Shown in pieces: positions 17,037 to 56,422 of a stretch of DNA of 64,000 nucleotides. Position numbers and translations under genes: made by a program. The stretch lies in NCBI GenBank assembly GCA_002748705.1, contig PDSZ01000015.1, positions 30,829 to 94,828 on the forward strand. The letters run 5' to 3'. Positions within the stretch are counted from its first letter, which is position 1, and each line of letters opens with the position of its first letter. The DNA is from Candidatus Fermentibacterota bacterium. Its GTDB lineage: Bacteria; Fermentibacterota; Fermentibacteria; Fermentibacterales; Fermentibacteraceae. The notes under the pieces were generated by a model. The model was not told where the DNA came from. It did no database searches and saw only the letters and a program-made list of their open reading frames with translations.

Positions 17037-17048
17037 CATCAAGCCCTA
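17037..17048. repeat. Right terminal inverted repeat of the IS
   Basis: CATCAAGCCCTA, the inverted copy of 15426-15437. Its last three bases (17046-17048) provide the TAG stop codon of the interrupted glycosidase gene. Confidence 0.85.
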
Positions 17049-39813: not shown

Positions 39814-40982
39814 GCGGATACCCCCAGCTCAAGAATGGCAGCTTCTCCGTCCCATGCTGCAGACACATTGGCAAACCCTCTGCGGAATCCCCCTGAAATA
39901 CTCAGCTCACAACATGGATCAGGCGAGCTGGCATTCAGGTCTGAGGTGACTGACAGTTTTGAAGTAACATGACCTACAGGAGAATATATTCCAGTGGCTG
40001 TGAGGGAAAGGCTGTCCCCTTCAAGGTTCAGTGCCCCTCCGAAACCTGCCGGTGCCGCAGAGTAAAGGCCTGAGATTTCCCCTGAGAATTCCTCCATTCC
40101 GGCCAGATTACCGAAAAACTCCCACTCTATTCCTTCTCTTGAGAGCATGTAGAACCTGCCGAACAAAGTGGCTGAATCAATGTTCTCTGCAGAAGCAGAT
40201 ACTCCTGCAGAACCGGTGACTGCAGCTGTTCTGCCTGACACAAGCCCTGAAAGGGACACTGTGGTTGAATCATCACACCAGACAACCCCTGGAACTATCT
40301 CCAGTCTGAAGAGAGATGAAACATCAGGCTGCCATCCTCTGAGCTGAACCTCTCCTGTGGAAATACTGTCACTCTTTTCAAAAAGGAACCAGGGCTGCAC
40401 TGACCTGAGATCTGCAAAACCCCTGATAAAGTCTGTGCCGGTGGAATCCATATCAATCTTCTCCCAGGATATCTGACCGAACCCCAGCCATGGAGAGTGA
40501 ACCCCATACCAGGAAAGACTCTCTCCGTACTGGTTCCAGAAACCGTCAAATCCCAGAATGCCTCCAGCTTTAAGCGCCATGCCGGTTGAATCGCTCGCAT
40601 CAACTTCTCCCCAGTCCGACAGGGGCGTTCCAATACCGCTGATGAACGGCTGATTTAAACCGTAGAATACACCAGCAGATATCCACGGAGACCCGGGCCA
40701 GGTGAAGGAACAACCGGCGGATACAGGACGAAATGTTTCTCCAGTTGAATCAGCTATAAAGTCAGTCACTCCTGCTGCTTCAACACTGAAGTGCTCATCA
40801 GTATAGGATGCAACAGGAAAAGCATGAAGTGTATCAGCTTCAGCGGTAGAGAGACCGGATTCAGGATCTGCGTTACCTGTACCTCTTACCAGTATTCCCC
40901 TGCGGAACCTCTCCGTATTCTCTCCTGTTTCTTCAGGAGCGAGAAGAAGAGTAAGCACGATAAGCGCTGTAATCATTCCCAC
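39801..40982 (-). CDS. Secreted beta-rich (barrel-like) hypothetical protein
   Basis: 393 aa with a weak N-terminal signal (MITALIVLTLLLAPEETG). The sequence is dominated by short alternating beta segments with Gly/Ser/Trp turns (SWYGVHSPWLGFGQISW, GGALNLEGDSLSLTATG) and ends in an aromatic-poor strand. This suggests an outer-membrane barrel or large beta-sandwich. No family recognised. It overlaps the neighbouring beta-rich gene by 10 nt and the CBM48 gene by 13 nt, so the three secreted proteins are made together. Confidence 0.6.
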   Translation of the reverse strand: MGMITALIVLTLLLAPEETGENTERFRRGILVRGTGNADPESGLSTAEADTLHAFPVASYTDEHFSVEAAGVTDFIADSTGETFRPVSAGCSFTWPGSPWISAGVFYGLNQPFISGIGTPLSDWGEVDASDSTGMALKAGGILGFDGFWNQYGESLSWYGVHSPWLGFGQISWEKIDMDSTGTDFIRGFADLRSVQPWFLFEKSDSISTGEVQLRGWQPDVSSLFRLEIVPGVVWCDDSTTVSLSGLVSGRTAAVTGSAGVSASAENIDSATLFGRFYMLSREGIEWEFFGNLAGMEEFSGEISGLYSAAPAGFGGALNLEGDSLSLTATGIYSPVGHVTSKLSVTSDLNASSPDPCCELSISGGFRRGFANVSAAWDGEAAILELGVSAWID

Positions 40983-41725
40983 CTCCTTAAGATTCCCATT
41001 GAATGGGATACAGTATCAGAAGAAAGTGATGCGCTGTAGGAAACCTGCCAGTTCCCTCCTGTCCATGAAAGCCCGCTGTTCAGCAGTTCTCCGTCAGTTC
41101 CGGCAGTAAGGCTGAGAACACTTGAAACATGAAGCTCTGCGCCTCCCTGCCACTGACTTTTTCCGTAATTCACATGTGCTGTCATATACCTGTTAAAGAC
41201 ATGGCTGAATCCTGCTCTTAGTATTCGGTCATCTGTAACATCCTCAAGTGTCATTCCAAGGGCAAAGGAAGGAAAGAGCGAAAACTGAAATCCGCAGTCC
41301 AGGTTTTCCCTGATGCTATCTGCTTCTGTATAATAATCAGCGCCAGCCGAAAAGCCTGCGGTTATGCTCGGTCCGAAAAGCCCCTCCATGAATCCTATGG
41401 GATCACCTGTTATCACATATGCGCCAGCCAGACGAAACCTAACACAGTCACTGTTGCCGTCCAGGTGGAACCCTGCCCCGAGCCCGTACTTTCTCCCGTT
41501 AAAGGGAAGCACAGCTGCAGCTGAATAAGCAGATTCTCCGTGAATGTATGCTCCTGCCAACTGGACTGTCAGTCTTTCTATTCTGCACAGCCCTGCAGGA
41601 GCCGACATGCAGGAGACAGGTGTCCTGCTCCATGAAGCAGGATGCACCCCCAGACCGGTCTCCACAGGTCCGCTGAATCCGGAGAACCAGACCAGTGCAG
41701 TGAGAATGATGGTTGAATAGATCAG
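40973..41725 (-). CDS. Secreted beta-barrel-like protein with apparent CTG start
   Basis: 250 aa from a CTG at 41725. Starting there gives a good signal peptide, (M)IYSTIILTALVWFSGFSG, and the codon overlaps the stop of the upstream gene as CTGA, exactly where ATGA couplings occur elsewhere in this window; GAGGAAGAGGTG lies upstream. No ATG, GTG or TTG occurs in frame before the signal peptide; the next usable start (GTG) would delete it. The mature part has repeated beta strands (SITAGFSAGADYYTEAD, FALGMTLEDVTDDRILRAGF) like a PorV-type or other outer-membrane barrel. Function unknown. Confidence 0.6.
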   Translation of the reverse strand: MIYSTIILTALVWFSGFSGPVETGLGVHPASWSRTPVSCMSAPAGLCRIERLTVQLAGAYIHGESAYSAAAVLPFNGRKYGLGAGFHLDGNSDCVRFRLAGAYVITGDPIGFMEGLFGPSITAGFSAGADYYTEADSIRENLDCGFQFSLFPSFALGMTLEDVTDDRILRAGFSHVFNRYMTAHVNYGKSQWQGGAELHVSSVLSLTAGTDGELLNSGLSWTGGNWQVSYSASLSSDTVSHSMGILRRWE

Positions 41726-43110
41726 TATGCACCTCTTCCTCTGAGTACAGTAACAACCGTTCTGGCCATGATGGCAAAGTCAAGCATCAGTGACCTGTTC
41801 CTCATGTAATAAAAATCATATTCGAGGTTCTCATGAAGAGGCAGGTCTTTCCTGCCCATTATCTGCCAGAGTCCTGTTATTCCGGGTTTTACATCAAGGC
41901 GTCTCTTCTGCCAGGCATTGTATTCCCGAACTATGAAGTCCATTTCAGGCCTTGGCCCTACAAGGCTCATTCTGCCTGTTAGCACATTGAACAGCTGGGG
42001 CAGTTCGTCAAAGCTTGTTCTTCGAAGAAATCTTCCAAGTGCAGTAATTCGCGGATCGCCTTTTCCAACAGGCGATACCTCATACTCACCTGTTTCAGGC
42101 TTCATGGTTCTGAACTTATAAAGGGTGAACGGAACACCGTTTCTTCCAATTCTGCTCTGTGCAAATACAGGAGACCCCTTTCCTGCCACAAGCAGCAAAA
42201 GCCAGATAAGCAGCATCAGAGGAGAGAGAAGCAGAATAAGCACTCCAGATACAGCAATATCAATAAGCCTTTTTATACCGCTGTAAAAGCTGCCGGTGCT
42301 GGAGGGCCCTATCTCAACCACTGGAATACTGGAAAGACTGTCCAGACTCTGAAAACCGGAGGCTATCTCAAACAGGTCTGTAACCAGCATGAATACAATG
42401 TCCTCTCTGTTCACAGAATTAACCAGCCTCATCATCTCTGCTCTGCTCATTGATCCGCTGGCAAAGAAGACCTCGTCCACACAACGGCTATCAGAAAGTC
42501 TTGAAAGATCATCAGCCGTTCCTATGACAGGAATGCCTTCTATGCACTCAAGGTCCACCGGACTCTCAGTGAGCACACCGAGTATCCTGTGTCTGGGAGC
42601 AGGCAGGCGCCCCATTGCAGTGATTACCCTTTCCGCAAATTCCCCTGAACCGATAATCAGAGTTGCAGGAGATTCCTTCACAGGAGCAATTCGTCTGGCC
42701 AGCTTTCTGAACAGCCAGCGAAAAAGAATGTTAACCGGTATGGATACGGCCAGAAAAAAGAACACCATAACCCTTGAGTAATCAATTTTCACCAGGTAGC
42801 TCACAGCCATGATGGAGAAAGCAAGATAGAACAGCGCCCTTATTCGCCTGGTAAGGGAACTGAACGGTGTCTGAATATCTGAAAGGGAATACATTCCCGC
42901 TGACCACCAGGATGAAACCAGAAGAATCGCCACAAACGGAATGGTTACAAGGTATGTGTAAACCGTATGGGAGAAACCTGGAAGAATTTCTCTGAGGGGT
43001 TCTGTTCTCACATACCATGTTATGTAGAGAGAAAAGGGAACAGTAAGAATATCCGCAACAGCAAGCGCTCCCAGAAGAACCCTCTGATGCTTTCTGGTAG
43101 GTGCCAGCAT
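41722..43110 (-). CDS. Polyprenyl glycosylphosphotransferase (WcaJ/WbaP type)
   Basis: Transfers a sugar-1-phosphate to undecaprenyl phosphate. The protein is 462 aa. Four N-terminal membrane helices and a Rossmann-like CoA_binding_3 region (ATLIIGSGEFAERVITAMG) are followed by the catalytic bac_transf domain: YSGIKRLIDIAVSG, a re-entrant helix, SRIGRNGVPFTLYKFRTM, RRTSFDELPQLFNVLTG, MSLVGPRPE and KPGITGLWQI. The second initiating transferase of the cluster; it differs in fold from the WecA-like enzyme. It lies 2 nt after the GT2 gene. Confidence 0.93.
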   Translation of the reverse strand: MLAPTRKHQRVLLGALAVADILTVPFSLYITWYVRTEPLREILPGFSHTVYTYLVTIPFVAILLVSSWWSAGMYSLSDIQTPFSSLTRRIRALFYLAFSIMAVSYLVKIDYSRVMVFFFLAVSIPVNILFRWLFRKLARRIAPVKESPATLIIGSGEFAERVITAMGRLPAPRHRILGVLTESPVDLECIEGIPVIGTADDLSRLSDSRCVDEVFFASGSMSRAEMMRLVNSVNREDIVFMLVTDLFEIASGFQSLDSLSSIPVVEIGPSSTGSFYSGIKRLIDIAVSGVLILLLSPLMLLIWLLLLVAGKGSPVFAQSRIGRNGVPFTLYKFRTMKPETGEYEVSPVGKGDPRITALGRFLRRTSFDELPQLFNVLTGRMSLVGPRPEMDFIVREYNAWQKRRLDVKPGITGLWQIMGRKDLPLHENLEYDFYYMRNRSLMLDFAIMARTVVTVLRGRGAY

Positions 43111-43112
43111 GA

Positions 43113-44057
43113 CTACCTGCCGCCTGTCAGGCCGAGAAGGGCACCTGCATCAAGGGCCAGAGCCCTCCAGAAACAGAATACAGGAACTGCAGCTGCTGTC
43201 ACCGGATCGAATGCAATGGAAACAGAGATAAGAGAAATACAGCTTGCAAGAAACAGTACCATCAGAACAGCCATAAGCAGCGGTGAGAGAAACAGCAGAA
43301 AAACAGAGGCAAGAATTACAGGTGCCAGAAGCATCTGAAACTTGAGCATCTGCGGTGTATATCCATCAGATATAATCATGCTCGGAAAGTTCTTAACCAG
43401 AATAATCCTCCATTTTCCCCTGCTCATCTTCATTCTGAAGTATGATTTCCAGGTGGAACGGTGAGTATGTCTGACCCTTGCATCTGGAACAAAAGCAATT
43501 CTGCCGCCGGAGCCTGTGAGTCTCCAGGAAAGATCTACATCCTCATGGTCCGGCAAAGGAAAGGTTTCGTCGAACCCATCAAGCCTTTCAAGGCAGCTTC
43601 TTCTGAAACCGGCGGAATATGTATCAGCAAGAAGCACTGTATCACGGCGGGCCATTATTCTGTACCTCTCCTGAAACTCAATCTGGGCCAGCCGCTGAAT
43701 CAGCTTTGTGCCGCCTTCAGAATATACCCCCTTTGAAGCCTCATACTCACCCCTGAGAGGAGCCAGCATTCGTTCAGCCCATCTGGCATCAGGAACACAG
43801 TCAGCGTCTGTAAAGAGAATGAATTCAGCCTTACTGCTCCGCCATCCTCTGTTTCTTGTCATTGCAGGGCCGCCTGCCGGGCCTTTCACCACCTTATCTG
43901 CCAAGGAAGCAATTTCTTCCTCAGGCCCTTCCAATCCGTCAATACTCAGGATTATCTCAAGATTCCTGCGAATGGTCTGCCTGTTCAGCGCCTGAAGCAC
44001 ACAGTTCAGAACAGATGAATCACCTCTGAAAGGAATCACAACAGCAGCATCAGCCAT
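43113..44057 (-). CDS. Family 2 glycosyltransferase
   Basis: 314 aa. The GT-A fold starts ADAAVVIPFRGDSSVLNCVL, with the sugar-nucleotide site FILFTDADCVPDARW (D-x-D-like) and GFDETFPLPDHEDVDLSWRL containing the catalytic-base region. Two C-terminal membrane helices follow. ATG at 44057 overlaps the radical SAM gene stop by 8 nt; the open frame continues upstream but is only that gene's other frame. Donor and acceptor are unknown. Confidence 0.88.
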   Translation of the reverse strand: MADAAVVIPFRGDSSVLNCVLQALNRQTIRRNLEIILSIDGLEGPEEEIASLADKVVKGPAGGPAMTRNRGWRSSKAEFILFTDADCVPDARWAERMLAPLRGEYEASKGVYSEGGTKLIQRLAQIEFQERYRIMARRDTVLLADTYSAGFRRSCLERLDGFDETFPLPDHEDVDLSWRLTGSGGRIAFVPDARVRHTHRSTWKSYFRMKMSRGKWRIILVKNFPSMIISDGYTPQMLKFQMLLAPVILASVFLLFLSPLLMAVLMVLFLASCISLISVSIAFDPVTAAAVPVFCFWRALALDAGALLGLTGGR

Positions 44058-45495
44058 TTTTACCCTTGAACAGGTACTTTCTGAAAGTTCTGAAAGCAAG
44101 CATGGTTCTGTGTCGCTCATTGGAATCAATAAGGCTTCTCCAGATTTTCCTGAGAATATAAACCGGTCTCAGGTAGAACTTTCTTCGGCAGTGGTCACAG
44201 AACTCAACAAGCTCCTCAGGAGTCATGTCTTCAGTTCGCACTACACAGGCGTGTGTCCCATCTGCCTTAAGCCAGTCACGCCAGCTTGATGCTGCCAGAA
44301 GCCCCTCATCTGAAACCTTCCGATAGGCATCTGTACCGGGATAGACCATAAGAGGATAAAACTGCGCAGTATCAGGATTAAGTTCCAATGCAAACTTCAG
44401 TGTTTCTGCAGCAGTTTCCCTGGTCTCCCCTGGAATACCGAAAAGAAAACACCCGTGAACAAGTATTTTTGCTTTGGAAGCATCCTTCTTGAATTGCTTC
44501 ATACGCTCTACGGTGATGCCTTTGTGCATTGAGGCCAGTATTCGGTCTGAACCGCTTTCAAACCCAACGCACACCGACCTGAGCCCTGCACTTCTGCAAA
44601 TCTTAAGGGTCTCAAGATCAACTGAAGCACGCATGTTGCAAGTCCACGAAATACTTACATTTCTGCGAATCATCTCTTCAGCAAGCTCCCTGAGCCTTCC
44701 GGTATCCGCTGCAATCGTGTCGTCTTCAAAGAACACAGCCTTTACTTCAGGCATGTTCTCCTCTACCCAGAGCATTTCATCCACAACACTGGAGGCGGAT
44801 CTGCTTCGATATCTTCGTCCTGTGAGGGTCTGAGGGAAAACACAGAAGGAACACATATTGGGACAGCCTCTGCCGCCCATGAGCATTACCTGAGGGTGAA
44901 GGGCATTGGGATTGTTGTACCGTTCAACTGGAAGATGTCTTTTGTAAACACTGCTCACAAAAGGCAGTGAATCAAGGTCATCAAGAAATCCTGACGGCGG
45001 AGTAACGATAACAGCATCACCGCTTCGAACAGCAGTGCCGGAAATACCCTCAATATTCCCGCCCTGCTCAATTGCTTCACAAACTGCAAGCAGCGGAAGC
45101 TCATACTCACCCAGTACTGCCCCCTTGAAAGAGTTTCCAAGAGCAATTGTTTCTTTCGGAAGAGCCGATGGATGAGTGCCGGTCAGGAAAACATCAAACC
45201 CTTTGTCCTGAATTATGTCCGCAATCTGAACATCATTGATAATGGAAGGAGTGGATGTTTCCACTATCACCAGCGCCGGATTGAATTCACTGATATTCTT
45301 CAGGACTTCAGTCTCATCTTTATTCATTGCAGGAGCGTCAATGAGCTGAACCACATGGTCTGCCTGCTCAAGTGCACCTGCAGCATAAGAGAGCCATATC
45401 GGATAGTACATTGTACCGCTTCTTGTTACAGCAGGGCTTCGCTGACCTCTGCTGAAGTGGGGAAGAAAAGGAGGGTTGAGAGCGGTTATCTTCAT
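44050..45495 (-). CDS. B12-binding-domain radical SAM protein (1 of 3)
   Basis: 481 aa. The N-terminal cobalamin-binding-like domain (about 1-150) lacks a clear D-x-H-x-x-G, as in many members. The radical SAM barrel has GGRGCPNMCSFCVFPQ (C-x3-C-x2-C, about residue 213), then FFEDDTIAAD, GFESGSDRILASMHKG and FGIPGETRET. A basic helical C-terminal tail (RPVYILRKIWRSL) may contact the membrane. Family members do methylations and C-C or ring chemistry on lipids and small molecules. Its place between GT2 and GT9 genes suggests modification of a lipid-linked glycan or lipid carrier, which is inference. It overlaps both neighbours. Confidence 0.88.
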   Translation of the reverse strand: MKITALNPPFLPHFSRGQRSPAVTRSGTMYYPIWLSYAAGALEQADHVVQLIDAPAMNKDETEVLKNISEFNPALVIVETSTPSIINDVQIADIIQDKGFDVFLTGTHPSALPKETIALGNSFKGAVLGEYELPLLAVCEAIEQGGNIEGISGTAVRSGDAVIVTPPSGFLDDLDSLPFVSSVYKRHLPVERYNNPNALHPQVMLMGGRGCPNMCSFCVFPQTLTGRRYRSRSASSVVDEMLWVEENMPEVKAVFFEDDTIAADTGRLRELAEEMIRRNVSISWTCNMRASVDLETLKICRSAGLRSVCVGFESGSDRILASMHKGITVERMKQFKKDASKAKILVHGCFLFGIPGETRETAAETLKFALELNPDTAQFYPLMVYPGTDAYRKVSDEGLLAASSWRDWLKADGTHACVVRTEDMTPEELVEFCDHCRRKFYLRPVYILRKIWRSLIDSNERHRTMLAFRTFRKYLFKGKNG

Positions 45496-46436
45496 TTTGA
45501 AAGAATCTCCTCCAGTTTTCCGGTTACCTGACCTGTATCAATTGATGTCATGCAGTCACCGGCACCTGTACACCTGCGGAACACACTGTTCGAATAGCAG
45601 GGTGAACATGATACAGACGCGGTAACTGGAGAAACAGTCCCCCTGGCAAAAAGCGCATCAGGATCTGAAGGACCGAAAAGTACCACAGCAGGGGTTGAAG
45701 ACGCAACTGCCAGGTGAGCAGGACCGCTGTCGTTTCCGGCAAACGCAGCAGCACCTTTTATCAAAGCGCCTGTCTCTCCCCATGTCAGCTTACCGGCAAG
45801 GTTCTCACAGGGCAGCTGCGAGAAATAGGATGACTCATCCCTGCCGCCTACCGCAAAGGTTCTGAACCCCTTCTGTAAAGCAAATTCCATAACCTTCTTC
45901 CATCTTTCAACGGGCCACCTTTTTTCCGGCACAAATTCTCTGGGGTTTCTGCCGCCACCTGGAGCAAAAACCACATAAGGTTCATCCCCTGTAATATTAT
46001 ACGCTAACTCCATTTCCTCAGAAGTGATTGGAAACACAGGCTTTAAGTCGACTGCCCTCACCTCTGCTATTCTGCAGTAATCAGCAGCTGCAGGTAGCGT
46101 CCTTCCAAAACCGGTGTCTGAAAAGGCGCCGCTTGTAACAGAGCATCCAGCGATATAACCGGACCACCTGGCAGCAAGCTGTGACGAACCAAAATGAATT
46201 GCCCGGTCAAACCCTTTCTGACGGTTACTCACAGACCAAAAAAGAAGCTTGGGAATAGAACATGGCGCCGGTGAAGCAATAACTCCCTCCAGTCCGGGAA
46301 ACCGCTGCCACACAGGAAGCGAGGAAGGACCTGCCAGTACTGTAACCCTGTGCCCTGAAGCAACCAGACCGGAAACTGCAGGAGTGGTCAGCAGAGCATC
46401 ACCAAAGGCATGGGTCTTTACTGCAAGTATTCTCAT
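45492..46436 (-). CDS. Family 9 glycosyltransferase (heptosyltransferase-like)
   Basis: 314 aa. GT-B fold with VKTHAFGDALLTTPAVSGL at the N-terminus and the donor-site block AFAGNDSGPAHLAVASSTPA followed by VVLFGPSDP. A C-terminal Cys-rich segment (SCSPCYSN, CTGAGDC) is typical of the ADP-heptose:LPS transferases. ATG at 46436 shares a base with the stop of the upstream membrane GT gene (TGATG). The donor may be heptose, but that is not certain. It fits core or O-chain assembly. Confidence 0.88.
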   Translation of the reverse strand: MRILAVKTHAFGDALLTTPAVSGLVASGHRVTVLAGPSSLPVWQRFPGLEGVIASPAPCSIPKLLFWSVSNRQKGFDRAIHFGSSQLAARWSGYIAGCSVTSGAFSDTGFGRTLPAAADYCRIAEVRAVDLKPVFPITSEEMELAYNITGDEPYVVFAPGGGRNPREFVPEKRWPVERWKKVMEFALQKGFRTFAVGGRDESSYFSQLPCENLAGKLTWGETGALIKGAAAFAGNDSGPAHLAVASSTPAVVLFGPSDPDALFARGTVSPVTASVSCSPCYSNSVFRRCTGAGDCMTSIDTGQVTGKLEEILSK

Positions 46437-47782
46437 CACTTCCGCCGAAGCAGCCCTGCCCTTAAGCAAAAGTGACGAAGACCGGTCATTGCCGCTATAA
46501 AAAGAGGAATGTCCAGTGCAACTCTGTGGGGCGTTCCTGAAGCGGTGATAAGATGCATAAGTATGTAACCGGCCATTACACCACTGAGAAAGATGCCCTG
46601 CCCTTTTCTGTAAAGGAACAGGAAAATTCCTGCAAGAAAGAAAATACCCACCCAGAAGAATGACATGAATCCTGGAATGGTATGCAAAAGGGAAAAGCTG
46701 TTCAGCGGAAATGGCTTGAAGAACTCTGCAAACCGGCAGCAGCTCAGGTGAAGGTAAAGAAGAGGATTGGCCATAAGGAATTCTGACTGCCTTTCATAGA
46801 GAATACTGTCTCTCTGAAACTCCGTTTCACAGGTAAACTGAGGGAATTCAGCCAGTTCCGGCTTTGCAAGGCGGTTAAGCCATGTTTCTCTCACAGGACC
46901 GTAAAGGACCTTAGCTCCCTGCTGATCATTTAAAAAAGCATCAGTGAAGATTCTACCGTTGTACTCCCACATCTGAACACCACCCTGAAGAGGAAGCAGC
47001 TGATACCTGCCCATAACATTCCTGTTTCTTAGCATCCACGGCGTAAGAAGTCCGAAGAAAACAATAACCATAAGGGAGGAATAAAGGATTTTTCTCACTT
47101 CCGGTCTTCCTGTAAACAGAATGAGCACCACCGCCAGCCAGAGTATCATTGGAAGAGAAGCAGGTCTTACCATGAACGATGCGGACCAGACAATTCCTGC
47201 CAGAATTGCCCTGCTCCACCCGGGTTTTTCAATGAGCCTGACCGACATGAGAAGTCCTGCGATAAAAAGAAATGAAAAAAGAGCCTGTGTTACCGGAATA
47301 GCCTGATAGTAAAGCTCAAAAGGATCAACAGCCATAAGAAATCCGCAGGCTGTGTACCACCATCCAGTAAGAAATCTGGAAGCAAGCCTCAGCCCCATAA
47401 ACACTGTCAGAATACCTAAAAGAAGCTGTACACCAATTACTGCAGTAAGATTTCCAGGGGAGAATAAGCTGAAAATAAACGCTTCAAATAGTATATAGCC
47501 GGGAACAAAAAAGGATGTAGGCCTCTCCGGAATAAGAGTCCCGTAAAATCCACCGGCTTCCCGAAAAAACTCCAGACTTGCATCTCTTCTTGGATCAGTA
47601 TCATGCATCATGGACTCTGAAAGCATACAACCTCTGCCGGAAAGAATGTTGCCGGCAATGTTGGCCTGAACCATTCCCTCACCTACCAGAAAAAAACCTC
47701 CGGCAGCAAGAAAGAAAATGAATACCCTTACCGCAAAGGCGACAGGAAGTATCAGCCGGTTCAGTTTTTTCCGCTGCACCAT
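46436..47782 (-). CDS. GT39-like (ArnT/PMT superfamily) membrane glycosyltransferase, copy 1
   Basis: 448 aa with about 10-11 membrane helices. The first periplasmic loop carries acidic residues (SMMHDTDPRRDASLE), and ERPTSFFVPGYILFEAFIF resembles the R-x-P-x-Y-P-x-x-x-x family region. FVRPASLPM and TPWMLRNRN follow. Such enzymes use polyprenyl-phosphate sugars on the periplasmic side. It is similar in plan to the protein at 49850-51148 (both have W-x-x-R-N and a late L-x-H-x-x-A segment), suggesting paralogues. The start overlaps the YdjC gene by 22 nt. Confidence 0.75.
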   Translation of the reverse strand: MVQRKKLNRLILPVAFAVRVFIFFLAAGGFFLVGEGMVQANIAGNILSGRGCMLSESMMHDTDPRRDASLEFFREAGGFYGTLIPERPTSFFVPGYILFEAFIFSLFSPGNLTAVIGVQLLLGILTVFMGLRLASRFLTGWWYTACGFLMAVDPFELYYQAIPVTQALFSFLFIAGLLMSVRLIEKPGWSRAILAGIVWSASFMVRPASLPMILWLAVVLILFTGRPEVRKILYSSLMVIVFFGLLTPWMLRNRNVMGRYQLLPLQGGVQMWEYNGRIFTDAFLNDQQGAKVLYGPVRETWLNRLAKPELAEFPQFTCETEFQRDSILYERQSEFLMANPLLYLHLSCCRFAEFFKPFPLNSFSLLHTIPGFMSFFWVGIFFLAGIFLFLYRKGQGIFLSGVMAGYILMHLITASGTPHRVALDIPLFIAAMTGLRHFCLRAGLLRRK

Positions 47783-48492
47783 TTACCGAACCATTCAGAA
47801 AGCATCAGTTCCATTTCACCCTTCTGCCCGTCAGACCAAACCTTTTCCGCCGCAGGGTGCATCACAATCTCTGTAAAACCTTCTGAACACTGACTGGTGT
47901 ACTTTTCAAGGTACTTCCTGCTTATTCTGCCTGACTTGCCGAAGCCCAGCATTCTGTCTGTTGTGAAAAGACCTTCTTTGATCAGCCGGTCTCTGAACTT
48001 TTCTCCCATGTGATTCAGTTTCAACCCCAGAGGGAAGCGCATCATTTTGTCCGGCATGATAGCAGAACGGACTGTGCTGATGCCATACTCCTTAGCTATG
48101 GAGATGATCACATCCTGAAGAGGAGGCAGATGGTGAAGATGCTTATGGCTGTCCAGAGCGGTGACCATGCCACCTGCTGAGAGTATTGCTTCTATCTGAG
48201 CCGACCACTCATTCCTGACCTTGTCAGCCAGAGCAGAAGATCGCTTCATCCATACTGCGAAAGAATCAGGAAATTCACTTTCCCTGAGCAAAAAAGGACC
48301 CTGACAGCAGTCAAGATGGGCTCCCATTCTAACACCGCCAACCATGCAGGTCACTATTGCTTCAGAATAAAGGCTACCTGTTGCCATGATTCCAACCCTG
48401 CTCACATAGCCCCCGGCAATACAATTTTCTATTGCAGTGTTGACAGCTTGATGCATTCCGCCATCATCAATTGTCACGGTTATCTCTCTCAT
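47761..48492 (-). CDS. YdjC/ChbG-like polysaccharide deacetylase
   Basis: 243 aa. Metal-dependent deacetylase of the ChbG/HpnK group. Motifs are TIDDGGMHQAVN at the N-terminus (metal Asp), MGAHLDCCQGP, DSHKHLHHLPPLQDV (His ligands) and EIVMHPA near the C-terminus. HpnK-type members sit in hopanoid clusters with B12 radical SAM enzymes; here it is also between membrane glycosyltransferases and B12-type radical SAM genes. The substrate is probably an N-acetyl sugar in the glycan or glycolipid. Starts ATGA-overlapped with the radical SAM gene upstream. Confidence 0.85.
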   Translation of the reverse strand: MREITVTIDDGGMHQAVNTAIENCIAGGYVSRVGIMATGSLYSEAIVTCMVGGVRMGAHLDCCQGPFLLRESEFPDSFAVWMKRSSALADKVRNEWSAQIEAILSAGGMVTALDSHKHLHHLPPLQDVIISIAKEYGISTVRSAIMPDKMMRFPLGLKLNHMGEKFRDRLIKEGLFTTDRMLGFGKSGRISRKYLEKYTSQCSEGFTEIVMHPAAEKVWSDGQKGEMELMLSEWFGKWCSGKN

Positions 48493-49862
48493 ACTCTCCT
48501 CACCTTCAGCAATGTTCTTCTGAAGTTCCTGGGCCCCAGGACTGTTTTAAGAGTTTTGAGAATACGGGCTGGATGAGCATAAAACTTCCAGAAAGCATTT
48601 TTCTTGAGCTTCTCCACCTGATCCGGAGTGATACCATCCAGTTTGTAAACACTCTTGTGAAAACAGTCAAATTCCGAATAATCAGCTTCAATGAGATCCC
48701 TGGACATCTCCCAGAGACCTGTATGCGGAAAGGGTGTTGTAATATCAAAGAGTGCATCATCGAAAGGTTCTTTTGCTGCGAAAGCAATGGTTTTCTTCAT
48801 CTCTTCAATGGTTTCGCCAGGGGCTCCCAGCATGAAGTAACCCTGAACAAATAGCCCCCTGGAACGGCACATTCTGACAGCCCTTCTCACCCCTTCAACG
48901 GTTATTCCCTTCCTGTAGATTTCATCCAGCACCCTCTGAGATGCTGATTCAACGCCCATGTTCACCTTGGAGAGACCTGCTGCCACCATGGTATCCAGTA
49001 ATTTCTCTGTAAGAAGGTCGGCACGGACATTACAGCACCACCTGAGCTTCAGCTCTCTGTTAAGCATTCTCCTGCATATCTCTGTTACCCACTTGTGATC
49101 CACTATGAATGTGGAATCTTCAAACATGAATGCATTTATTGAATACTTTTCAACCAGATGTTCCAGTTCATCCACCACCGATCCAGGGGATCTTTTTCGC
49201 ATCTTCTTTCCAAATATTTCCGACAGTGTGGGCTGACAAAAGGTGCACCTGTACGGACAGCCTCTTGTTGCCATAATGGTGGTACCTCTCAGAGTAGAAT
49301 CCACTCTGTCCATGGAATACCAGTTCCTGAAATAGGTTTCCATATCATAAATATCTCTGTCTGGAAGGGGCAGGTCATCAAGGTCGTTTACGATAAGCCT
49401 TCCTGGAACCCTGAACGGAACTCCGTCCCTGTAAAAACACGCACCGGGAATCTGTTCATACGGAATTCCGTCAATCAGCATTTCCATTGCCCGTTCCCCT
49501 TCCCCTGCGTACACCAGATCTGCACCGGTGCCTTCAAGGGTTTCTTCAGGAAGTACCGTTGCATGGGGACCGCCTATGAGCAGTGTTGCCTCAGGAGCAT
49601 TTTTTCTGATTACTTCACAGGAATCAAGCGTAGCTCTTATCTGTGGCGTTACCAATGAGATGCATACTATATCCGGATGGAAATCCTTTATATATCTCTC
49701 CAGGTCCCCCATAGGGTCAGAACTGTAAGACATATCACACAATGCCGTTTCAGCACCTTTGCCTTTTGCAACAGCAGAGAGCATGGCGATGCCGAGATTC
49801 GGCTGTCCTGAAGGGTATCTGGTTTCCGGAAACACAAAGAGAATCCGCTTTATATTCTGCAG
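48489..49862 (-). CDS. B12-binding-domain radical SAM protein (2 of 3), probable CTG start
   Basis: 457 aa from CTG at 49862. The conserved first strand of the B12-binding domain, K-R-I-L-F-V-F-P-E-T-R-Y-P, requires a start upstream of the first GTG (49835), and the only candidate with a ribosome site (GGAG, 6 nt before) is this CTG. The radical SAM motif is CPYRCTFCQPTL, with AFMFEDSTFIVD, NMGVESASQRVLDEIYRKG and FMLGAPGETIEE. A basic C-terminal tail (KTVLGPRNFRRTLLKVRRV) is like those of the other two copies. It overlaps the upstream gene by 13 nt and YdjC by 4 nt. Substrate unknown. Confidence 0.85.
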   Translation of the reverse strand: MQNIKRILFVFPETRYPSGQPNLGIAMLSAVAKGKGAETALCDMSYSSDPMGDLERYIKDFHPDIVCISLVTPQIRATLDSCEVIRKNAPEATLLIGGPHATVLPEETLEGTGADLVYAGEGERAMEMLIDGIPYEQIPGACFYRDGVPFRVPGRLIVNDLDDLPLPDRDIYDMETYFRNWYSMDRVDSTLRGTTIMATRGCPYRCTFCQPTLSEIFGKKMRKRSPGSVVDELEHLVEKYSINAFMFEDSTFIVDHKWVTEICRRMLNRELKLRWCCNVRADLLTEKLLDTMVAAGLSKVNMGVESASQRVLDEIYRKGITVEGVRRAVRMCRSRGLFVQGYFMLGAPGETIEEMKKTIAFAAKEPFDDALFDITTPFPHTGLWEMSRDLIEADYSEFDCFHKSVYKLDGITPDQVEKLKKNAFWKFYAHPARILKTLKTVLGPRNFRRTLLKVRRV

Positions 49863-51148
49863 GTTCCGCTCCTTCCACAGCAGACTCCCAGGGCAGTTCC
49901 TATAAGGAATACAGAATCCACAGGAAGTCTGTATCTGGCACCGCCGTGGGCAGCGGCATGTATCAGAAGATACAAAATGAATACTGAAATGAGAAACACT
50001 GTCTCAGGAGAAAAACGATTTCTCCAGAAGCCCACAAGTCCGAAAACCATAAGCGGATAGATAATTAGCCCTGCCAACATACCCCTGGTTCCCAGTGTAT
50101 CTCCTCCAGGGCCGAGGAAATGAACTGCTCTGTGCCAGCCCAGCCAGAGCATCAGTCTGGGATTGGCAACTATAAAGCTTCTTGAAGCCCTGGAGAGCAC
50201 AGCACTTCTATCAAGTTCCCCAGGCAGAGAATCCATTGCCGGATACTCAAGCAGTTCCGGAGAGTTTACAGGAATATCTTCGGGCACATGAATGCCTTCT
50301 ATGTCAAGCACATCAGGATTGTTGCGCATCCACAGGTTAAGAGAACCCTTGGTGGGCATCAGTACTGGAGAACCGAGTTCCACATAGTTTCTTACCACCC
50401 ATGGTGAAACTGCTGCAGCAAACCCGAGAATGATAAAGAGGAGGGATTTCCATCTTCTCTGCCATGCCAGCCAGGCCATTTCCAGAGGAAGAAGGAACAG
50501 AGCAGTAGCCCTGACCAGGAAGAATAAACCTGTTGCAGCGCCTGCTGTGAATCCGTTCCCCTTTCCCCTTCCTGCAGAAAGAACCAATAGTGCAGTGACC
50601 ATTAGAAGCGCTGAATGGGCGGTCTCCGTCATTGCATGACCACTGAAATAGATATATGGCGGATACAGAGCCCAGAGAACTCCTGCCATAGTTCCCTTCA
50701 CCCTGCCCCAGGAATCTGAAACCAGCTTCATAACTGCAAAGGCTCCTGCTGCAGCAAAGATCAGATTAAGCAGAAAAACCGCACCGGTAACAGGGCCTAA
50801 CAACCGAAACATCAGAGAGAGAAGAAATGGATACCCTGGTTCCATGACAGCTGTGGGTTCTTCCACAGGGGCAAGACCGAACAGATAATCAGGGTCTGCA
50901 GTCCATGCTCTCTGTGCTCCTTCCGAATCGTTTCTCAGGTTCTTGAGAGTACCGATCGCTTCCGAAAATGAGAATCCGTATCCCTCTGCCATTCTTCCTG
51001 CAACATGAATATAGAGAGCCTGATCTCTTACAGGCTGCGGAAGAGCGCCGCCCAGATAGAAAAACCACAAAATTCTGGGAAGTATCACAGAGGCAAGCAG
51101 AATTGGAACTGCATGCTTTTCAAGACTGTTAATGAATCGGAATATCAT
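49850..51148 (-). CDS. GT39-like membrane glycosyltransferase, copy 2
   Basis: 432 aa with about 10-11 predicted helices. After the first helix comes a periplasmic loop with RDQALYIHVAGRMAEGYGF, then EPTAVMEPGYPFLLSLMF, which matches the E-P-x-Y-P region of the ArnT/PMT superfamily. PWVVRNYVELGSPVLMPTKG is the common late motif. The C-terminal SSxAHGGARYRLPVD-like end (AAHGGARYRLPVDSVFL) is typical. Uses a polyprenyl-linked donor in the periplasm. Its start overlaps the stop of the third radical SAM gene by one base. Confidence 0.78.
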   Translation of the reverse strand: MIFRFINSLEKHAVPILLASVILPRILWFFYLGGALPQPVRDQALYIHVAGRMAEGYGFSFSEAIGTLKNLRNDSEGAQRAWTADPDYLFGLAPVEEPTAVMEPGYPFLLSLMFRLLGPVTGAVFLLNLIFAAAGAFAVMKLVSDSWGRVKGTMAGVLWALYPPYIYFSGHAMTETAHSALLMVTALLVLSAGRGKGNGFTAGAATGLFFLVRATALFLLPLEMAWLAWQRRWKSLLFIILGFAAAVSPWVVRNYVELGSPVLMPTKGSLNLWMRNNPDVLDIEGIHVPEDIPVNSPELLEYPAMDSLPGELDRSAVLSRASRSFIVANPRLMLWLGWHRAVHFLGPGGDTLGTRGMLAGLIIYPLMVFGLVGFWRNRFSPETVFLISVFILYLLIHAAAHGGARYRLPVDSVFLIGTALGVCCGRSGTCRI

Positions 51149-52566
51149 CAGGTCTCTCTGCCTCCTGTAATTGAAATCATAAAAGCCTTTGCATCATGAA
51201 GTATTCCTTTGAAACCAGCCAGTTTGAAGTGCTTCCATATAAGTGCCGGTATCCGTTTGAAGGGTTTACGGAGAAGGTAGCTCCTTCCCACTGTTCCCTG
51301 TGCCCAGTCACGAAGCTCATGGAGTTCCTGATCGGTAAAATCTGTAAGATTTATAAGCAGCTCATCTGCAGCGTTCATTTTCATAATAAAAGACTCCAGA
51401 TCTCCAATAAGCCCCTTGTCCATCGCTTCCTGAAAAATCGCAGTTCCCGGATACGGTGTAACAAACAGCATGGGTACGGTAATATCAGCTTTTATACAGA
51501 AATCCACAGTGGCTTTAACCGATTCCCTGGTTTCACCGAACATACCGATAATGAAACTGCCCTCTGCATGAATACCAACTGATTCTGTAAGCTTGAGAGC
51601 ATCCAGACACTGCTTTGAGGTAACTCCCCTTTTAAGTCTTTTCAGCATTGCATCGTCACCGGATTCTATTCCATAGGATATCCAGTCACATCCTGCATCT
51701 TTCATGGTCTCCAGCATTTCTCTGTCCACAGTGTTCACTCTGCCGAGACAGGACCACTTCATGCCTGGAACCTTCTCCTTTATCAGTTCGCAGGTCCTCA
51801 TTACGAATTTTCTGTCACTTGTGAACAGGTCGTCTGGAAAACCGGTGTACTTTATGTCAAACCTTCTGACCAGTTCGCAGATCTCGTTAACAATAGACTC
51901 TGGAGAACGACGACGCACCCTTCTACCATAGATTCGATAGCAGTAGACACAGTTATATGGACAGCCTCTGCTTGCCACTACCTCAAGATGCCTGACCCTC
52001 TTCTGTCTGTGATCCATGCTGGATATGTAGTTTTCAACTGGAAACAAATCCCAGGCAGGCCATGGAAGAGTGTCCAGATCAGCAATCATCTCTCTTGGTG
52101 CGGAACGCGCCAGATTGTTATCTTCATCAAGCCAGGCAATACCTGGAACTTCATGCCAGTCACCGGAAGAATCCAGTGTTTCCGCCAGTTCCACAGAGGT
52201 TCTCTCCCCTTCGCCAAGCACAACGCAGTCAAGGTCACACCCTCTCAGATAAAGCTCAGGAATTGTTGTGGCACCTGTGTTGCCTGCACAGATGAATACA
52301 CCTGGAATAAGCGACCTGATAATGCCGGACATGGCCTTAACCATACGATACCTGGTTACCATGCCTCCAAAAGCCACCATATCCGGCGATGAAGAGACAA
52401 TACGCTCCAACGCCTCATCAGAGGTAAGTGCATCACCCTCCATATCAACAACATGCACATCATACCCCGCATCCCTCAGCGAAGCTGCTATGTAAGCAAG
52501 ACCAAAGGGAAAGTACAGTGAATGAATGTCCTCACCGTACCTGGGATACACCAGGGTTATCTTCAA
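51148..52566 (-). CDS. B12-binding-domain radical SAM protein (3 of 3)
   Basis: 472 aa. The B12-binding-like domain begins LKITLVYPRYGEDIHSLYFP. The radical SAM motif is SRGCPYNCVYCYRIYG (about residue 215), followed by YTGFPDDLFTSD, GIESGDDAMLKRLKRG and GSFIIGMFGETRES. A basic helical C-terminus (RKPFKRIPALIWKHFKLAG) may bind membrane. The start is TTG at 52566 with AAAGGA 7 nt upstream; a longer frame to 52590 is possible. The first gene of the run that continues to the ligase-like gene. Confidence 0.87.
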   Translation of the reverse strand: MKITLVYPRYGEDIHSLYFPFGLAYIAASLRDAGYDVHVVDMEGDALTSDEALERIVSSSPDMVAFGGMVTRYRMVKAMSGIIRSLIPGVFICAGNTGATTIPELYLRGCDLDCVVLGEGERTSVELAETLDSSGDWHEVPGIAWLDEDNNLARSAPREMIADLDTLPWPAWDLFPVENYISSMDHRQKRVRHLEVVASRGCPYNCVYCYRIYGRRVRRRSPESIVNEICELVRRFDIKYTGFPDDLFTSDRKFVMRTCELIKEKVPGMKWSCLGRVNTVDREMLETMKDAGCDWISYGIESGDDAMLKRLKRGVTSKQCLDALKLTESVGIHAEGSFIIGMFGETRESVKATVDFCIKADITVPMLFVTPYPGTAIFQEAMDKGLIGDLESFIMKMNAADELLINLTDFTDQELHELRDWAQGTVGRSYLLRKPFKRIPALIWKHFKLAGFKGILHDAKAFMISITGGRET

Positions 52567-52724
52567 GCCGATTCCTTTCTGTCCAGCCAATAATCTTGAA
52601 TTATTCAGGCCAGGTCAAAGGCTTTCTGTTACATTGGGCCAAAACCTCAACTCAGGACAGCGGCAGAATCAGAAACCGGAGTGTTAATAATGTGCAGCAA
52701 ACTGCCGGGTTTTGAGAGCTGAAC

Positions 52725-53828
52725 TCATTCAACACCGATCAGCAGAACTCTCTGAACCATGAAAGGATCTTCATGCACAGCAAGGAAATCTCTGCACCAT
52801 GGTGTTATGTAGAATGTGAGCAACTCATCAGGAGGAAGTTCCAGATCAAGTTCTGCTGTGAAAAGATACTCCCCTTCCGGTACCTGCCACACATCAAAAA
52901 CAGGTTTCTCTGTGTATCCTCTGAGTACCCACAGATTATTCTCCCAGCCAAGCCACAAACCGGCAATAGCAGGCTTTACAGGATCAGGTTCGTAAACCCA
53001 TTCAAGAACATTTGAAGTACCCATACCTGTAAGGTAGTCTTCTATATAGGCCTTCTCTATCTCCATCTCTTCCGGAGACTTGTATACAGTGGGCACTTCA
53101 ATTGAAAGGGTGTCGAAGGGAACCCCGTCACTATCCAGACAGAAAACACTGTAACCAGGTTGAGACCTCCTGACCATGTAGAGGTTCCCATTCAGGTCTC
53201 CGGCAAAATAATGGGAGAAAAAAGATCTGTTAAGAGCGTCATTGTTCTCTTCAGGCGCCACAGGAAGTGAAATCGGATCCGACATGTATTCTGTTACCAT
53301 CTCTCCCTGGAGATCGTATGAAGCAATGAACTGTCTGAGAACATTGGAATTCCCATGGACAAACTCGTGCCACCTGACGGCAAATATGCTGTCCCCCATT
53401 ATGGTGTGCTGAGAAGGCCAGTTGCCTGAGTGTGTGAGAATGTGGCTCTGCCATTCTCCGTCAGGAGAATAAAGCCCCAGATCCATCACATCCTGAATCA
53501 GAAAAGAGCCGTCCGGCAGCATCTCAATACAATGGGGCATGAGAAGCTCTCCAGGCCCCTGACCGCCTCCCCCTGCGAACCCATAGTATGAACCGTCAGG
53601 ATAATACATCTGGAGTTTTGCTCTGGACATATCAAGTATGTAGATCAGACTGTCTGTGCGAACACAGTCAACTGCATAGCCGAACACATAGCTGGAATCA
53701 CCAAGTTCAACTCCGATTGTATCGGTAATAATGAGAGAAACACTTGATACCGATTCGGTGAATTGCACAGGCTCATCTCTGCAACCGGCAGCAACCAGAA
53801 TAAAAAAACAGCAGCATATTTCCACCAC
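52725..53828 (-). CDS. Six-bladed beta-propeller lipoprotein with 7-T tract in signal peptide
   Basis: About 367 aa, propeller of the 6-bladed (DUF4934/NHL-like) kind with GGGGQGPGELLMPH near the N-terminus and repeated Y-D-L/G-D-L strands. The lipobox is ILVAAGC in this frame. The in-frame GTG at 53828 gives a signal peptide with no positive charge (MVEICCCFFILVAAGC). The better-placed ATG at 53830 (GGAGG 7 nt upstream) is in another frame and reads MWWKYAAVF; one extra T in the TTTTTTT run would join it to the lipobox. Function is unknown. The gene stands alone, divergent from the lipoprotein at 54162. Confidence 0.75.
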   Translation of the reverse strand: MVEICCCFFILVAAGCRDEPVQFTESVSSVSLIITDTIGVELGDSSYVFGYAVDCVRTDSLIYILDMSRAKLQMYYPDGSYYGFAGGGGQGPGELLMPHCIEMLPDGSFLIQDVMDLGLYSPDGEWQSHILTHSGNWPSQHTIMGDSIFAVRWHEFVHGNSNVLRQFIASYDLQGEMVTEYMSDPISLPVAPEENNDALNRSFFSHYFAGDLNGNLYMVRRSQPGYSVFCLDSDGVPFDTLSIEVPTVYKSPEEMEIEKAYIEDYLTGMGTSNVLEWVYEPDPVKPAIAGLWLGWENNLWVLRGYTEKPVFDVWQVPEGEYLFTAELDLELPPDELLTFYITPWCRDFLAVHEDPFMVQRVLLIGVE

Positions 53829-54161
53829 ATGAATGAACCTCCAAATATATTTAAGCATTCTCAACTTATAATACATAAACTGGATAGTGTTTTCAAAATA
53901 GTCCATAGTTCTTCTTTTTCCAATGCCGTATCAGACAAGATTCATTAGCTGATTGTAATCTCAACGCAATTCTTTTGTTTCATATTTAACCGGATGAGCT
54001 GGAGATAATTAGAAAAGCAGGTGTTTGGGAAGCGGTCTTCGCCTGGGGCCAAATATTATCTGCCCGAAATCCATACATTCCAAGAATGCCCTGAAACTGC
54101 AATGCTGTGGAACAAACGACGAGAGTCGGACTACAATGGTTAAACTCAAGGAGGTCATCGT

Positions 54162-54668
54162 ATGAAAAGAATCATGGCAACTACGGCTCTCGCCGCACTT
54201 ATCTTTACCGGCTGCGGAACAGGCCCTGATAACACTGAAGCTCCCTACAATCCTGTTGATGAAAGCTGGAAGGCAGTTGAAAATTTCATTTTCGCATGGA
54301 ACACCAGAGACCAGGATCTGCTTTCTGAAACACTCTCCGATGACTTTGAAATGCCCCTTTCAGAAGAAGACTGGGCTGACTACAACGGTGACGGAATCAT
54401 CGATAAAAGCCTGCCAGAAAACATATATCTGAATGTTGCTTCAGTCATTTTCTCCTCTTACAGTCATGTTGAACTTCTGGTTGACTACAGTGCAGGCCAG
54501 AGCAATGAGTTCACTGGAGACTGGAACATGAAGGTCTACAATATTGAAGGCGGTGAACAGACAGGGTGGAGTGCTTCAGGAGAAACTGTTATAGTCTGCG
54601 CTGAAAACGGTTCCGGTCAGTGGAATGTTATCAGTGTTACCGAAATACCTGCTCCGCCTGAAGAATAG
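54162..54668 (+). CDS. Lipoprotein with NTF2-like pattern and one EF-hand-like loop
   Basis: 168 aa. Signal peptide KRIMATTALAALIFTGC with lipid-anchor Cys18. The mature part, SWKAVENFIFAWNTRDQDLL onwards, resembles SnoaL/NTF2-like small domains. DYNGDGIIDKS is a Ca2+-binding-loop-like sequence (D-x-N-x-D-G-x-I-D). The start has AAGGAGG upstream. It is the only plus-strand gene between 15104 and 59164. Function not recognised. Confidence 0.65.
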   Translation: MKRIMATTALAALIFTGCGTGPDNTEAPYNPVDESWKAVENFIFAWNTRDQDLLSETLSDDFEMPLSEEDWADYNGDGIIDKSLPENIYLNVASVIFSSYSHVELLVDYSAGQSNEFTGDWNMKVYNIEGGEQTGWSASGETVIVCAENGSGQWNVISVTEIPAPPEE

Positions 54669-55228
54669 AATATCTGTTCCGAAGCTGCGCCAAAATAGAC
54701 TGTGAGAATCTGTTTCCGTCAGGTGCTTTCATGAAGAATCCCTGTTCCAGTAAACCGCATCTCCCTTCTGCTTAGAATGTGGTTTTTGGCTGAAACTTCA
54801 TAACGAATGCTCCAAAAAGTTGATTATGTCATAGTTTTCTTTCTGTGTGACAGATATTAGCTTTATAAAGCTCCACTTGAAATTCGGTATATTGAAACTG
54901 CCCCACAAGCTGGAGAACCGGACGAAAGAAGGTGAGATAAGGGAAATCCGCGGCGAATCGTGAACGGTTTGCTGTCATATCTCTTCCGGCGACCATTCTG
55001 CTCACTGTTACACAACAAAAACCTGTCCCTGGTATTTAATTACAGTTACCGTTGCTGCAAGACTTATACATATGACGCAACCACTTCCAGGCTCAGTGGT
55101 TGCCTGGAACGGATAGCGAATCAGTACAACAGGTGCTGACAAGGAAAAAGATATGGAGTGAAGCAGAATTTCCTTCCATGCTGTGAACTCACTGTAAGGA
55201 CAAAACTGTTTAAGATCAAACTCAGGAT
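54669..55228. other. 560-bp intergenic region
   Basis: Between the plus-strand lipoprotein and the minus-strand wzt gene (convergent ends). No convincing gene. At 55078-55107 there are two overlapping hairpins: CAACCACT/AGTGGTTG (55078-55085, 55095-55102) and CCAGGC/GCCTGG (55087-55092, 55102-55107). No T-run follows, so neither is a classic terminator. Confidence 0.5.
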
Positions 55229-56422
55229 TTATCTCTTCTGTATTGAAAGGGAGTTCATTCGGAGAGGAGTTTCCTTTCTCTCTCCAAGAAACGAGAGTGG
55301 ATAAAGAAAGTCCTGCCAGTGATAATCGGTATCGTTTCCTGTGAGCGAAACAGATAGAAGGTAATTTCCCGGTTCCAGAACCTCCGGCTCAATAACAATC
55401 TCTGCAGCGGTTTCCCCTTCCACGGCAAGAAGAGGTTCTCCATTTTCCAGATTGTTGGAAGCAAGAACAGTTTCGCCGTCAGGTCTGTGGATTGAAAAGC
55501 CCAGAATCACATTCTCTGTGCGCCTGCTCTCCCTGCTGTCGGCAGTAATCCTGATAACTACCCTGTCATTCTGCCTGAATGTACGGGATGGAATTCCGTC
55601 TTGGTTCTGAATTGAGACACTGCTGAAAAAGACCTCCCTTGTACCCCATTCTCTCGGAGCTGCCGATGCTGCATGATGGGTGAGCCTTCCAGCGTTCTGC
55701 TCAAGATATGCTCCCAGCACATCGTCAACAGGACCGTCCATTCTTATTCTGCCGCAGTCAAGCCACAAAGCTCGCTCACAGAGCCTTCTCACAGCCTCGT
55801 GGTCGTGGCTTACAAAAACTATTGTCTTTCCTGACTCCCGAAAGCCGAAGATTCTGTCGTAACACTTCTCCTGAAAAGCAGAATCTCCCACTGCAAGAAC
55901 CTCATCTATAAGAAGAATATCAGGATCAACACTTGTGGCCAGTGCAAATCCAAGCCTCATGAACATTCCTGACGAGAAATACTTCACAGGGGTATCCATG
56001 AACCTCTCCAGCATTGAGAACCGGGCTATTTCAGAAAGAAGCCGGTCCATCTCAGACCTTCCCAGACCAAGCATTGCACCGTTCAGATAGACATTTTCCG
56101 CTCCTGTGAGTTCAGGGTGAAACCCTACTCCAAGATCCAGAAGAGAGGCTGTTCTGCCTGCGGTTTCAACCTTGCCTGAAGTAGGGCTGTAGATTCCTGC
56201 AAGGAGCTTGAGGGTGGTTGACTTGCCTGCGCCGTTGGAGCCTATAAGGGCAACCGGCTCTCCGGGACTTATCTGAAAAGAGGCGTGATCCAGCGCACGA
56301 AAACTGTCTACTGAAGTTTTTCTTCCGAAGATGTTCATCATGGTCTCCATGATACTCACTGAGCGATCCCTGTACAGACGGTAATCAAGGCAGACATCTG
56401 TGAAACAGACAAGCCCTTTCAT
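55229..56422 (-). CDS. wzt: O-antigen ABC transporter ATPase (Wzt) with C-terminal glycan-binding domain
   Basis: 397 aa. Exports undecaprenyl-linked polysaccharide with Wzm. The ATPase has Walker A GSNGAGKST, the signature YFSSGMFMRLGFALA (typical of Wzt), Walker B ILLIDEVLAVGD and FVSHDHEAVRRLCERALWL. After about residue 245 comes a beta-sandwich Wzt_C domain (VVIRITADSRESRRTENVIL), which in known systems recognises the glycan's end. Start overlaps the wzm stop by one base. This implies ABC-dependent export for at least one glycan of the island. Confidence 0.92.
   Translation of the reverse strand: MKGLVCFTDVCLDYRLYRDRSVSIMETMMNIFGRKTSVDSFRALDHASFQISPGEPVALIGSNGAGKSTTLKLLAGIYSPTSGKVETAGRTASLLDLGVGFHPELTGAENVYLNGAMLGLGRSEMDRLLSEIARFSMLERFMDTPVKYFSSGMFMRLGFALATSVDPDILLIDEVLAVGDSAFQEKCYDRIFGFRESGKTIVFVSHDHEAVRRLCERALWLDCGRIRMDGPVDDVLGAYLEQNAGRLTHHAASAAPREWGTREVFFSSVSIQNQDGIPSRTFRQNDRVVIRITADSRESRRTENVILGFSIHRPDGETVLASNNLENGEPLLAVEGETAAEIVIEPEVLEPGNYLLSVSLTGNDTDYHWQDFLYPLSFLGERKETPLRMNSLSIQKR

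Follow-up and report, generated by a model that had tools for sequence, protein, structure and literature searches.

An HpnJ-like radical SAM enzyme and a YdjC deacetylase in a candidate surface-glycan locus of Fermentibacterota

What do three B12-type radical S-adenosylmethionine (SAM) enzymes do among lipid-linked glycosyltransferases? The question is raised by a locus of a Candidatus Fermentibacterota bacterium (assembly GCA_002748705.1), found in a 64,000-nucleotide (nt) stretch of contig PDSZ01000015.1 (positions 30,829 to 94,828), hereafter the window. Open reading frame (ORF) coordinates and Pfam assignments give the minus-strand order rSAM1, GT-C glycosyltransferase, rSAM2, YdjC deacetylase, second GT-C, GT9, rSAM3, GT2 and WcaJ-type transferase, rSAM1 to rSAM3 being the radical SAM proteins. 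The first-pass annotation of this DNA had the same order, although the range that it gave, 44050..52566, leaves out the GT2 and WcaJ-type genes. The answer proposed here centers on rSAM3, which, as judged from its sequence, is a member of an unnamed HpnJ-related family. Tentatively, and with slightly less than an even chance of being right, the locus would perform an HpnJ/HpnK-like editing of a lipid-linked sugar of a surface glycan, within a Fermentibacterota locus of the lipopolysaccharide (LPS)/O-antigen kind equipped with an ABC exporter.

rSAM3, YdjC and the conserved core

The three proteins are B12-type radical SAM enzymes, as first annotated. All exceed the Radical_SAM and B12-binding cut-offs of Pfam (B12-binding: rSAM2 71.4, rSAM1 70.2, rSAM3 40.5 bits; cut-off 32.1) and carry the CxxxCxxC motif. 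They fall in no single characterized family: for each protein, rSAM3 included, all of the 25 best NCBIfam matches stay below their cut-offs. On the HpnJ model TIGR03471 (cut-off 577.6), where genuine HpnJ proteins score 685-736, rSAM3 reaches 356.3 bits, rSAM2 180.1, and rSAM1 171.8. The scores of rSAM1, rSAM2, and rSAM3 are 189, 167.3, and 150 for BchE (TIGR02026, cut-off 481.35), and 117, 117.3, and 74.1 for AprD4 (NF033070, cut-off 500). The ladderane-associated B12 radical SAM family TIGR04072 (cut-off 360), alike in domain architecture, gives 116.3, 150.9, and 137.6.

HpnJ and rSAM3 share the same architecture and 65 near-invariant positions, and the HpnJ-specific positions are retained. 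Residues R306, H347, and Q378 of rSAM3 are among those in common with HpnJ. Their C-terminal tails are also alike, the HpnJ profile running through the basic tail of rSAM3 to position 468 of 472. The basic helical tail, first noticed as a trait common to the three enzymes, is thus real but is a family feature; it was rejected as a sign of joint function because genuine HpnJ carries it too. In Fermentibacterota, the YdjC deacetylase lies near rSAM3, as HpnK does near HpnJ.

This deacetylase belongs to the YdjC family (PF04794, 129.4 bits, cut-off 29.7) and scores below the cut-off of the HpnK model TIGR03473 (98.6 against 232.6). Residues D9, D10, H59, H116, and H212, which we take to be metal-binding or catalytic, are kept as in HpnK and are invariant in 20 aligned sequences. 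Family and catalytic residues are therefore those of HpnK, with only 24-26% identity to the four HpnK sequences aligned. The best NCBIfam matches of rSAM3 and YdjC are HpnJ and HpnK. The earlier view of a lipid-linked glycan locus with HpnJ/HpnK resemblance is borne out.

Among the matches listed, the named rSAM3 relatives with 60-71% identity come from Candidatus Fermentibacterota (Sabulitectum, Aegiribacteria, Fermentibacteraceae, Fermentibacteria). The closest match of the list has 92% identity. A genome scan gave 260 confirmed stretches, the best 80 of which form 80 loci, 26 from Fermentibacterota (L001-L026) and 54 from elsewhere. One of the 54, L069, bears the title Fermentibacteria, but its genome is not among the 42 phylum genomes. 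In the 26 loci, gene order between Der and RimP is mostly preserved over the length that the contigs cover; L021 lacks both GT-C genes. GT9 is found in 26/26 loci, GT2 in 25/26, and the WcaJ-type gene in 24/26 within 6 kilobases (kb). YdjC is present in 21; in the other five, the sequence upstream of rSAM3, where the gene is expected, is shorter than 2.4 kb. Across the 42 phylum genomes, YdjC occurs in 38 and LpxC in 37; all 42 have an rSAM3-family protein, and 36 have the main copy. In 29 of the 34 genomes having both, YdjC and rSAM3 lie on one contig at a distance of 1.1-2.6 kb. From this linkage and from the conservation of the loci, the core is defined as YdjC, GT-C, GT9, rSAM3, GT2, and WcaJ, rSAM1 and rSAM2 being optional members. 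Of the radical SAM enzymes and YdjC, only rSAM3/YdjC is a phylum-wide unit. With its core genes conserved throughout the phylum, the arrangement exceeds chance.

The first-pass annotation suggested one pathway for the three radical SAM enzymes, which the data do not uphold. In a tree built by a quick method with midpoint rooting, they form three separate, distant families; this tree has flagged long branches, and support for the joining of the HpnJ branch is weak (72). rSAM2 is found in 35/42 phylum genomes and rSAM1 in 28/42, yet they share a contig with rSAM3 in only 16/30 and 7/25 of the genomes with both, some misses being contig breaks; in the 26 loci, they number 11 and 6. These linkage values leave a single three-enzyme pathway unsupported, and the linkage expected among relatives holds for the core genes but often fails for rSAM1 and rSAM2. 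It is an even call that the three enzymes have no common pathway, rSAM3/YdjC/GT2 performing one step while rSAM1 and rSAM2 modify other sugars or lipids, a view compatible with sugar editing by rSAM3. Against it, the lineage of the window has all three in a single tightly packed run, and rSAM2 adjoins YdjC in 23 of the 34 genomes with both; in the remainder, the two are on other contigs, and some separations are contig ends.

A possible route of sugar editing

In hopanoid synthesis, HpnI adds N-acetylglucosamine to bacteriohopanetetrol, HpnK deacetylates it, and HpnJ forms the cyclitol ether (PMC12583986, available in part). NaxD, a member of the YdjC superfamily, deacetylates undecaprenyl-phosphate-N-acetylgalactosamine before transfer to lipid A (PMC11279074, available in part). 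It thus acts on a lipid-linked N-acetylhexosamine prior to transfer, and is likened to YdjC here by family. The locus combines parts of both systems; genes of a kind matching Arn/NaxD-type lipid A modification are present.

The sugar would be edited after being laid down on its lipid, presumably in the following order. GT2 may glycosylate a lipid or glycolipid of the membrane, from which YdjC, given its family and catalytic residues, would strip the N-acetyl group of an N-acetylhexosamine. rSAM3, perhaps with the help of cobalamin, would then generate a substrate radical on the deacetylated sugar and rearrange it. Its family position and shared residues suggest an HpnJ-like ring contraction as the most likely outcome, leading to a cyclopentitol or aminocyclopentitol. 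The GT-C enzymes would attach units on the outer side, from presumed polyprenyl-phosphate-linked donors. The first-pass label of "GT39-like" has the backing of PMT_2 in the first copy (30.7 bits); the second falls below the PMT_2 cut-off (19.8 against 26.1 bits) and has no PDB sequence match at E 0.1, but its predicted fold is clearly GT-C. This fold is similar to those of ArnT and Pmt4, GT-C enzymes using polyprenyl-phosphate donors, at 11-12% identity and with a shorter chain. rSAM1 and rSAM2, each in its own family, could provide optional extra tailoring.

Ring contraction is only moderately favored over deoxygenation or methylation, because of the family position of rSAM3. That rSAM3 edits the lipid-linked sugar by AprD4-like diol dehydration or by C-methylation like that of the aminoglycoside enzymes GenD1 and GenK instead is somewhat unlikely. 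The closest solved structure, by fold and by sequence, is AprD4 (PDB 6fd2), solved with paromamine. AprD4 is not known to require cobalamin. GenD1 and GenK methylate sugars and AprD4, together with AprD3, deoxygenates paromamine (PMC5461906, available in part), while methylation predominates among cobalamin-type radical SAM enzymes (PMC13142503, available in part). By profile, however, rSAM3 clearly sides with HpnJ, at 356 bits against 74 for AprD4, and retains the HpnJ-specific positions noted above. The substrate of AprD4, a radical SAM 1,2-diol dehydratase, is a soluble antibiotic precursor. The chemistry of rSAM3 would be a variant of the HpnJ type, not a new kind.

Several observations weigh against HpnJ-like sugar editing. 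The nearest fold is that of a dehydratase. rSAM3 stays below the HpnJ cut-off at a mean identity of ~34%, and of the positions that HpnJ holds constant it departs at 21 (two being gaps there), many of them N-terminal; its substrate would therefore differ. The neighboring GT2 has no HpnI match at E 0.01 in NCBIfam, and the searches made turned up no assayed member of the rSAM3 family. Two further points, the partners of the family in other phyla and the presence of hopene cyclases there, are taken up below.

The rSAM3 family in other phyla

Of 7998 proteins scored against rSAM3, 5230 have an E value of 1e-20 or better, a count that takes in more distant relatives. The 54 loci outside the Fermentibacterota set include Riflebacteria, Planctomycetota, Nitrospirae, Deltaproteobacteria, and Chloroflexi. 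GT2 lies within 6 kb of rSAM3 in 38 and immediately follows it in 32; GT9 is no more than 4 kb away in 24. YdjC was found by profile search in 0/54. Around genuine HpnJ, the same profile detects HpnK (69-85 bits) at less than 2 kb in 3/3 wide loci, and in 3/20 further HpnJ loci having only 1.5 kb of flank, so that its absence from the 54 loci is not a matter of sensitivity alone. The reaction of the family would thus be independent of a YdjC partner, and the amine may not be required. Nor do these loci support an ancient HpnK-HpnJ pair inherited together throughout the rSAM3 family. A crude motif scan for another deacetylase gave matches in 27 loci, nearly all of them GT2 by position and length, and none convincing.

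Three more protein clusters are frequent nearby, with annotations that come from a single scanned member of each: a DUF362 protein bearing iron-sulphur motifs in 27 loci, an LpxL-type acyltransferase in 16, and a molybdopterin oxidoreductase in 13. They suggest an LPS context. The LpxL-type cluster, together with PlsY upstream in the window, favors an action of the enzymes on the hydrophobic lipid part (acyl or polyprenyl chain), as does the proposal that cobalamin-type radical SAM enzymes form ladderane and tetraether rings (PMC13142503, available in part). This is quite improbable, as rSAM3 is far below the cut-off of the ladderane-associated family and its steadiest neighbors are glycosyltransferases.

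The first-pass annotation saw no hopanoid cyclase at the locus, and this extends to the phylum: the hopene cyclase domain PF13249 is found in 0/42 phylum genomes, the positive control B. subtilis being detected. A search with TIGR01507, superseded by that with PF13249, had given 0/27 genomes over the cut-off and a weak match in G027 (E 4e-4), with both controls also below the cut-off. The product of the Fermentibacterota locus is, therefore, probably not a hopanoid. Outside the Fermentibacterota set, 12 of 47 rSAM3-family genomes have a hopene cyclase domain over the cut-off (seven above 360 bits, five weak or short) and 35 have none; in these 12, rSAM3 may have a hopanoid link. That the locus is a fragment of a hopanoid cluster, with rSAM3 as HpnJ and YdjC as HpnK, was rejected for Fermentibacterota as highly improbable despite the best NCBIfam matches, since both proteins score below the cut-offs, none of the 42 phylum genomes shows the cyclase, and genuine HpnJ coexists with an rSAM3-type protein in three genomes, those of Kuenenia, a Nitrospira, and a member of Planctomycetota (L055, L042, and L067; further loci L102, L104, and L103).

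A broader and more speculative proposal, which we consider unlikely, is that of a large unnamed HpnJ-like family, present in several phyla at LPS and polysaccharide loci, whose members reshape the sugar rings of glycans carried on lipids. The Fermentibacterota enzyme would follow an HpnK/NaxD-like deacetylase and yield a cyclopentitol or aminocyclopentitol surface sugar. To our knowledge, HpnJ-type chemistry is described for hopanoids only. No paper describing an HpnJ-like radical SAM enzyme in a glycan cluster was found in the accessible part of the open-licence literature, and the available portions of PMC11868695 and PMC2649909 contain nothing on the rSAM3 family. If unnamed HpnJ relatives act on surface glycans, radical sugar rearrangement would be a wider route to diversify bacterial surfaces. 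The finding supplies a concrete, testable substrate class for many uncharacterized enzymes.

Further arrangements were seen around members of the family. The DUF362 protein, rSAM3, GT2, and molybdopterin oxidoreductase recur with GT9 and the LpxL-type acyltransferase in Nitrospirae and Deltaproteobacteria, as a full set in L043, L044, L046, L052, and L074, and with one part missing in L045, L062, L072, L075, and L077. These genes make up a candidate redox-linked module of LPS character. Members of clusters c9 and c10, further radical SAM proteins of the B12 type, lie near rSAM3 in L029, L042, L044-L046, L055, L057, L064, L065, L067, and L070; one member is nearest to BzaD, with 275.7 bits, below the cut-off of 450. 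Most of the 42 Fermentibacterota genomes harbor a second rSAM3-family protein (~44% identical). In the eight loci covered (L094-L101, e.g., L095:8001-9452), this copy is part of a separate polysaccharide locus, where it usually follows a GT4 and has a WcaJ-type transferase nearby.

Layout of the locus and its surroundings

Coordinates are given in Table 1. The start of rSAM1 was refined to a TTG at 52566, the longest ORF extending to 52590, and that of GT2 to an ATG at 44057, inside the 3' end of rSAM3. The coupling by overlaps first reported is real: rSAM1/GT-C overlap by 1 nt, rSAM2/YdjC by 4, YdjC/GT-C by 22, GT-C/GT9 by 34, GT9/rSAM3 by 4, and rSAM3/GT2 by 8. GT-C and rSAM2 are separated by 14 nt, and GT2 and WcaJ by 2.

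Table 1. Features of the locus, with positions in the window
Feature	Position	Strand	Evidence or remark
rSAM1, B12-binding/radical SAM	51148-52566	-	Best NCBIfam match BchE, 189 bits (cut-off 481.35); optional locus member
GT-C type glycosyltransferase, first copy	49850-51148	-	PMT_2, 30.7 bits
rSAM2, B12-binding/radical SAM	48489-49835	-	Pfam, NCBIfam scores, phylum linkage
YdjC-family deacetylase, nearest HpnK	47761-48492	-	Pfam YdjC 129.4 bits, residue alignment
GT-C glycosyltransferase, second copy	46436-47782	-	Predicted fold resembles Pmt4 and ArnT
GT9, heptosyltransferase-like	45492-46469	-	Pfam, 82.2 bits
rSAM3, HpnJ-like B12-binding/radical SAM; center of the finding	44050-45495	-	Pfam, NCBIfam, tree, alignment, fold
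GT2, C-terminal hydrophobic segments (judged by eye)	43113-44057	-	rSAM3 partner kept across phyla
WcaJ-type polyprenyl glycosylphosphotransferase	41722-43110	-	TIGR03025, 377.7 bits (cut-off 295.55); Bac_transf, 208.4 bits
WecA/MraY-like GT4, in same conserved block as rSAM3	37321-38385	-	
Wzy_C (O-antigen ligase/polymerase) with TPR, in same conserved block	34448-37324	-	
Wzt with Wzt_C domain	55229-56422	-	
ABC-2 permease	56422-57189	-	

The larger block comprises Der, PlsY, the ABC-2 permease, and Wzt on the upstream side of the radical SAM run. On its downstream side, it continues with the WcaJ-type gene, three genes that Pfam does not match, a UgpC/MalK-like ATPase, the WecA-like GT4, and Wzy_C-TPR, followed by RimP-NusA-IF2. 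The three genes without Pfam match (39457-41665) are nevertheless kept in the block phylum-wide; by eye, two resemble outer-membrane barrels and one a carbohydrate-binding lipoprotein. Between rSAM1 and Wzt, positions 52725-55229 comprise a protein that has no Pfam match (52725-53906) and a stretch lacking clear genes; the loci of the 26 relatives gave no counterpart of comparable length.

Promoter-like and terminator-like sites in 43000-56000 are about as numerous as in shuffled sequences (16 against 13.9, and 13 against 11.5, respectively), and an Rfam scan of the window gave no family at gathering score. Repeats are short only; among them is the stretch that encodes CxxxCxxC in the three radical SAM enzymes. 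Elsewhere in the window, an AmmeMemoRadiSam-type radical SAM protein (238.4 bits, cut-off 220) adjoins ApbE (20633-22419), and a DDE transposase adjoins an arabinofuranosidase-like protein (15456-18770), where the coding strand and the GC skew switch sign.

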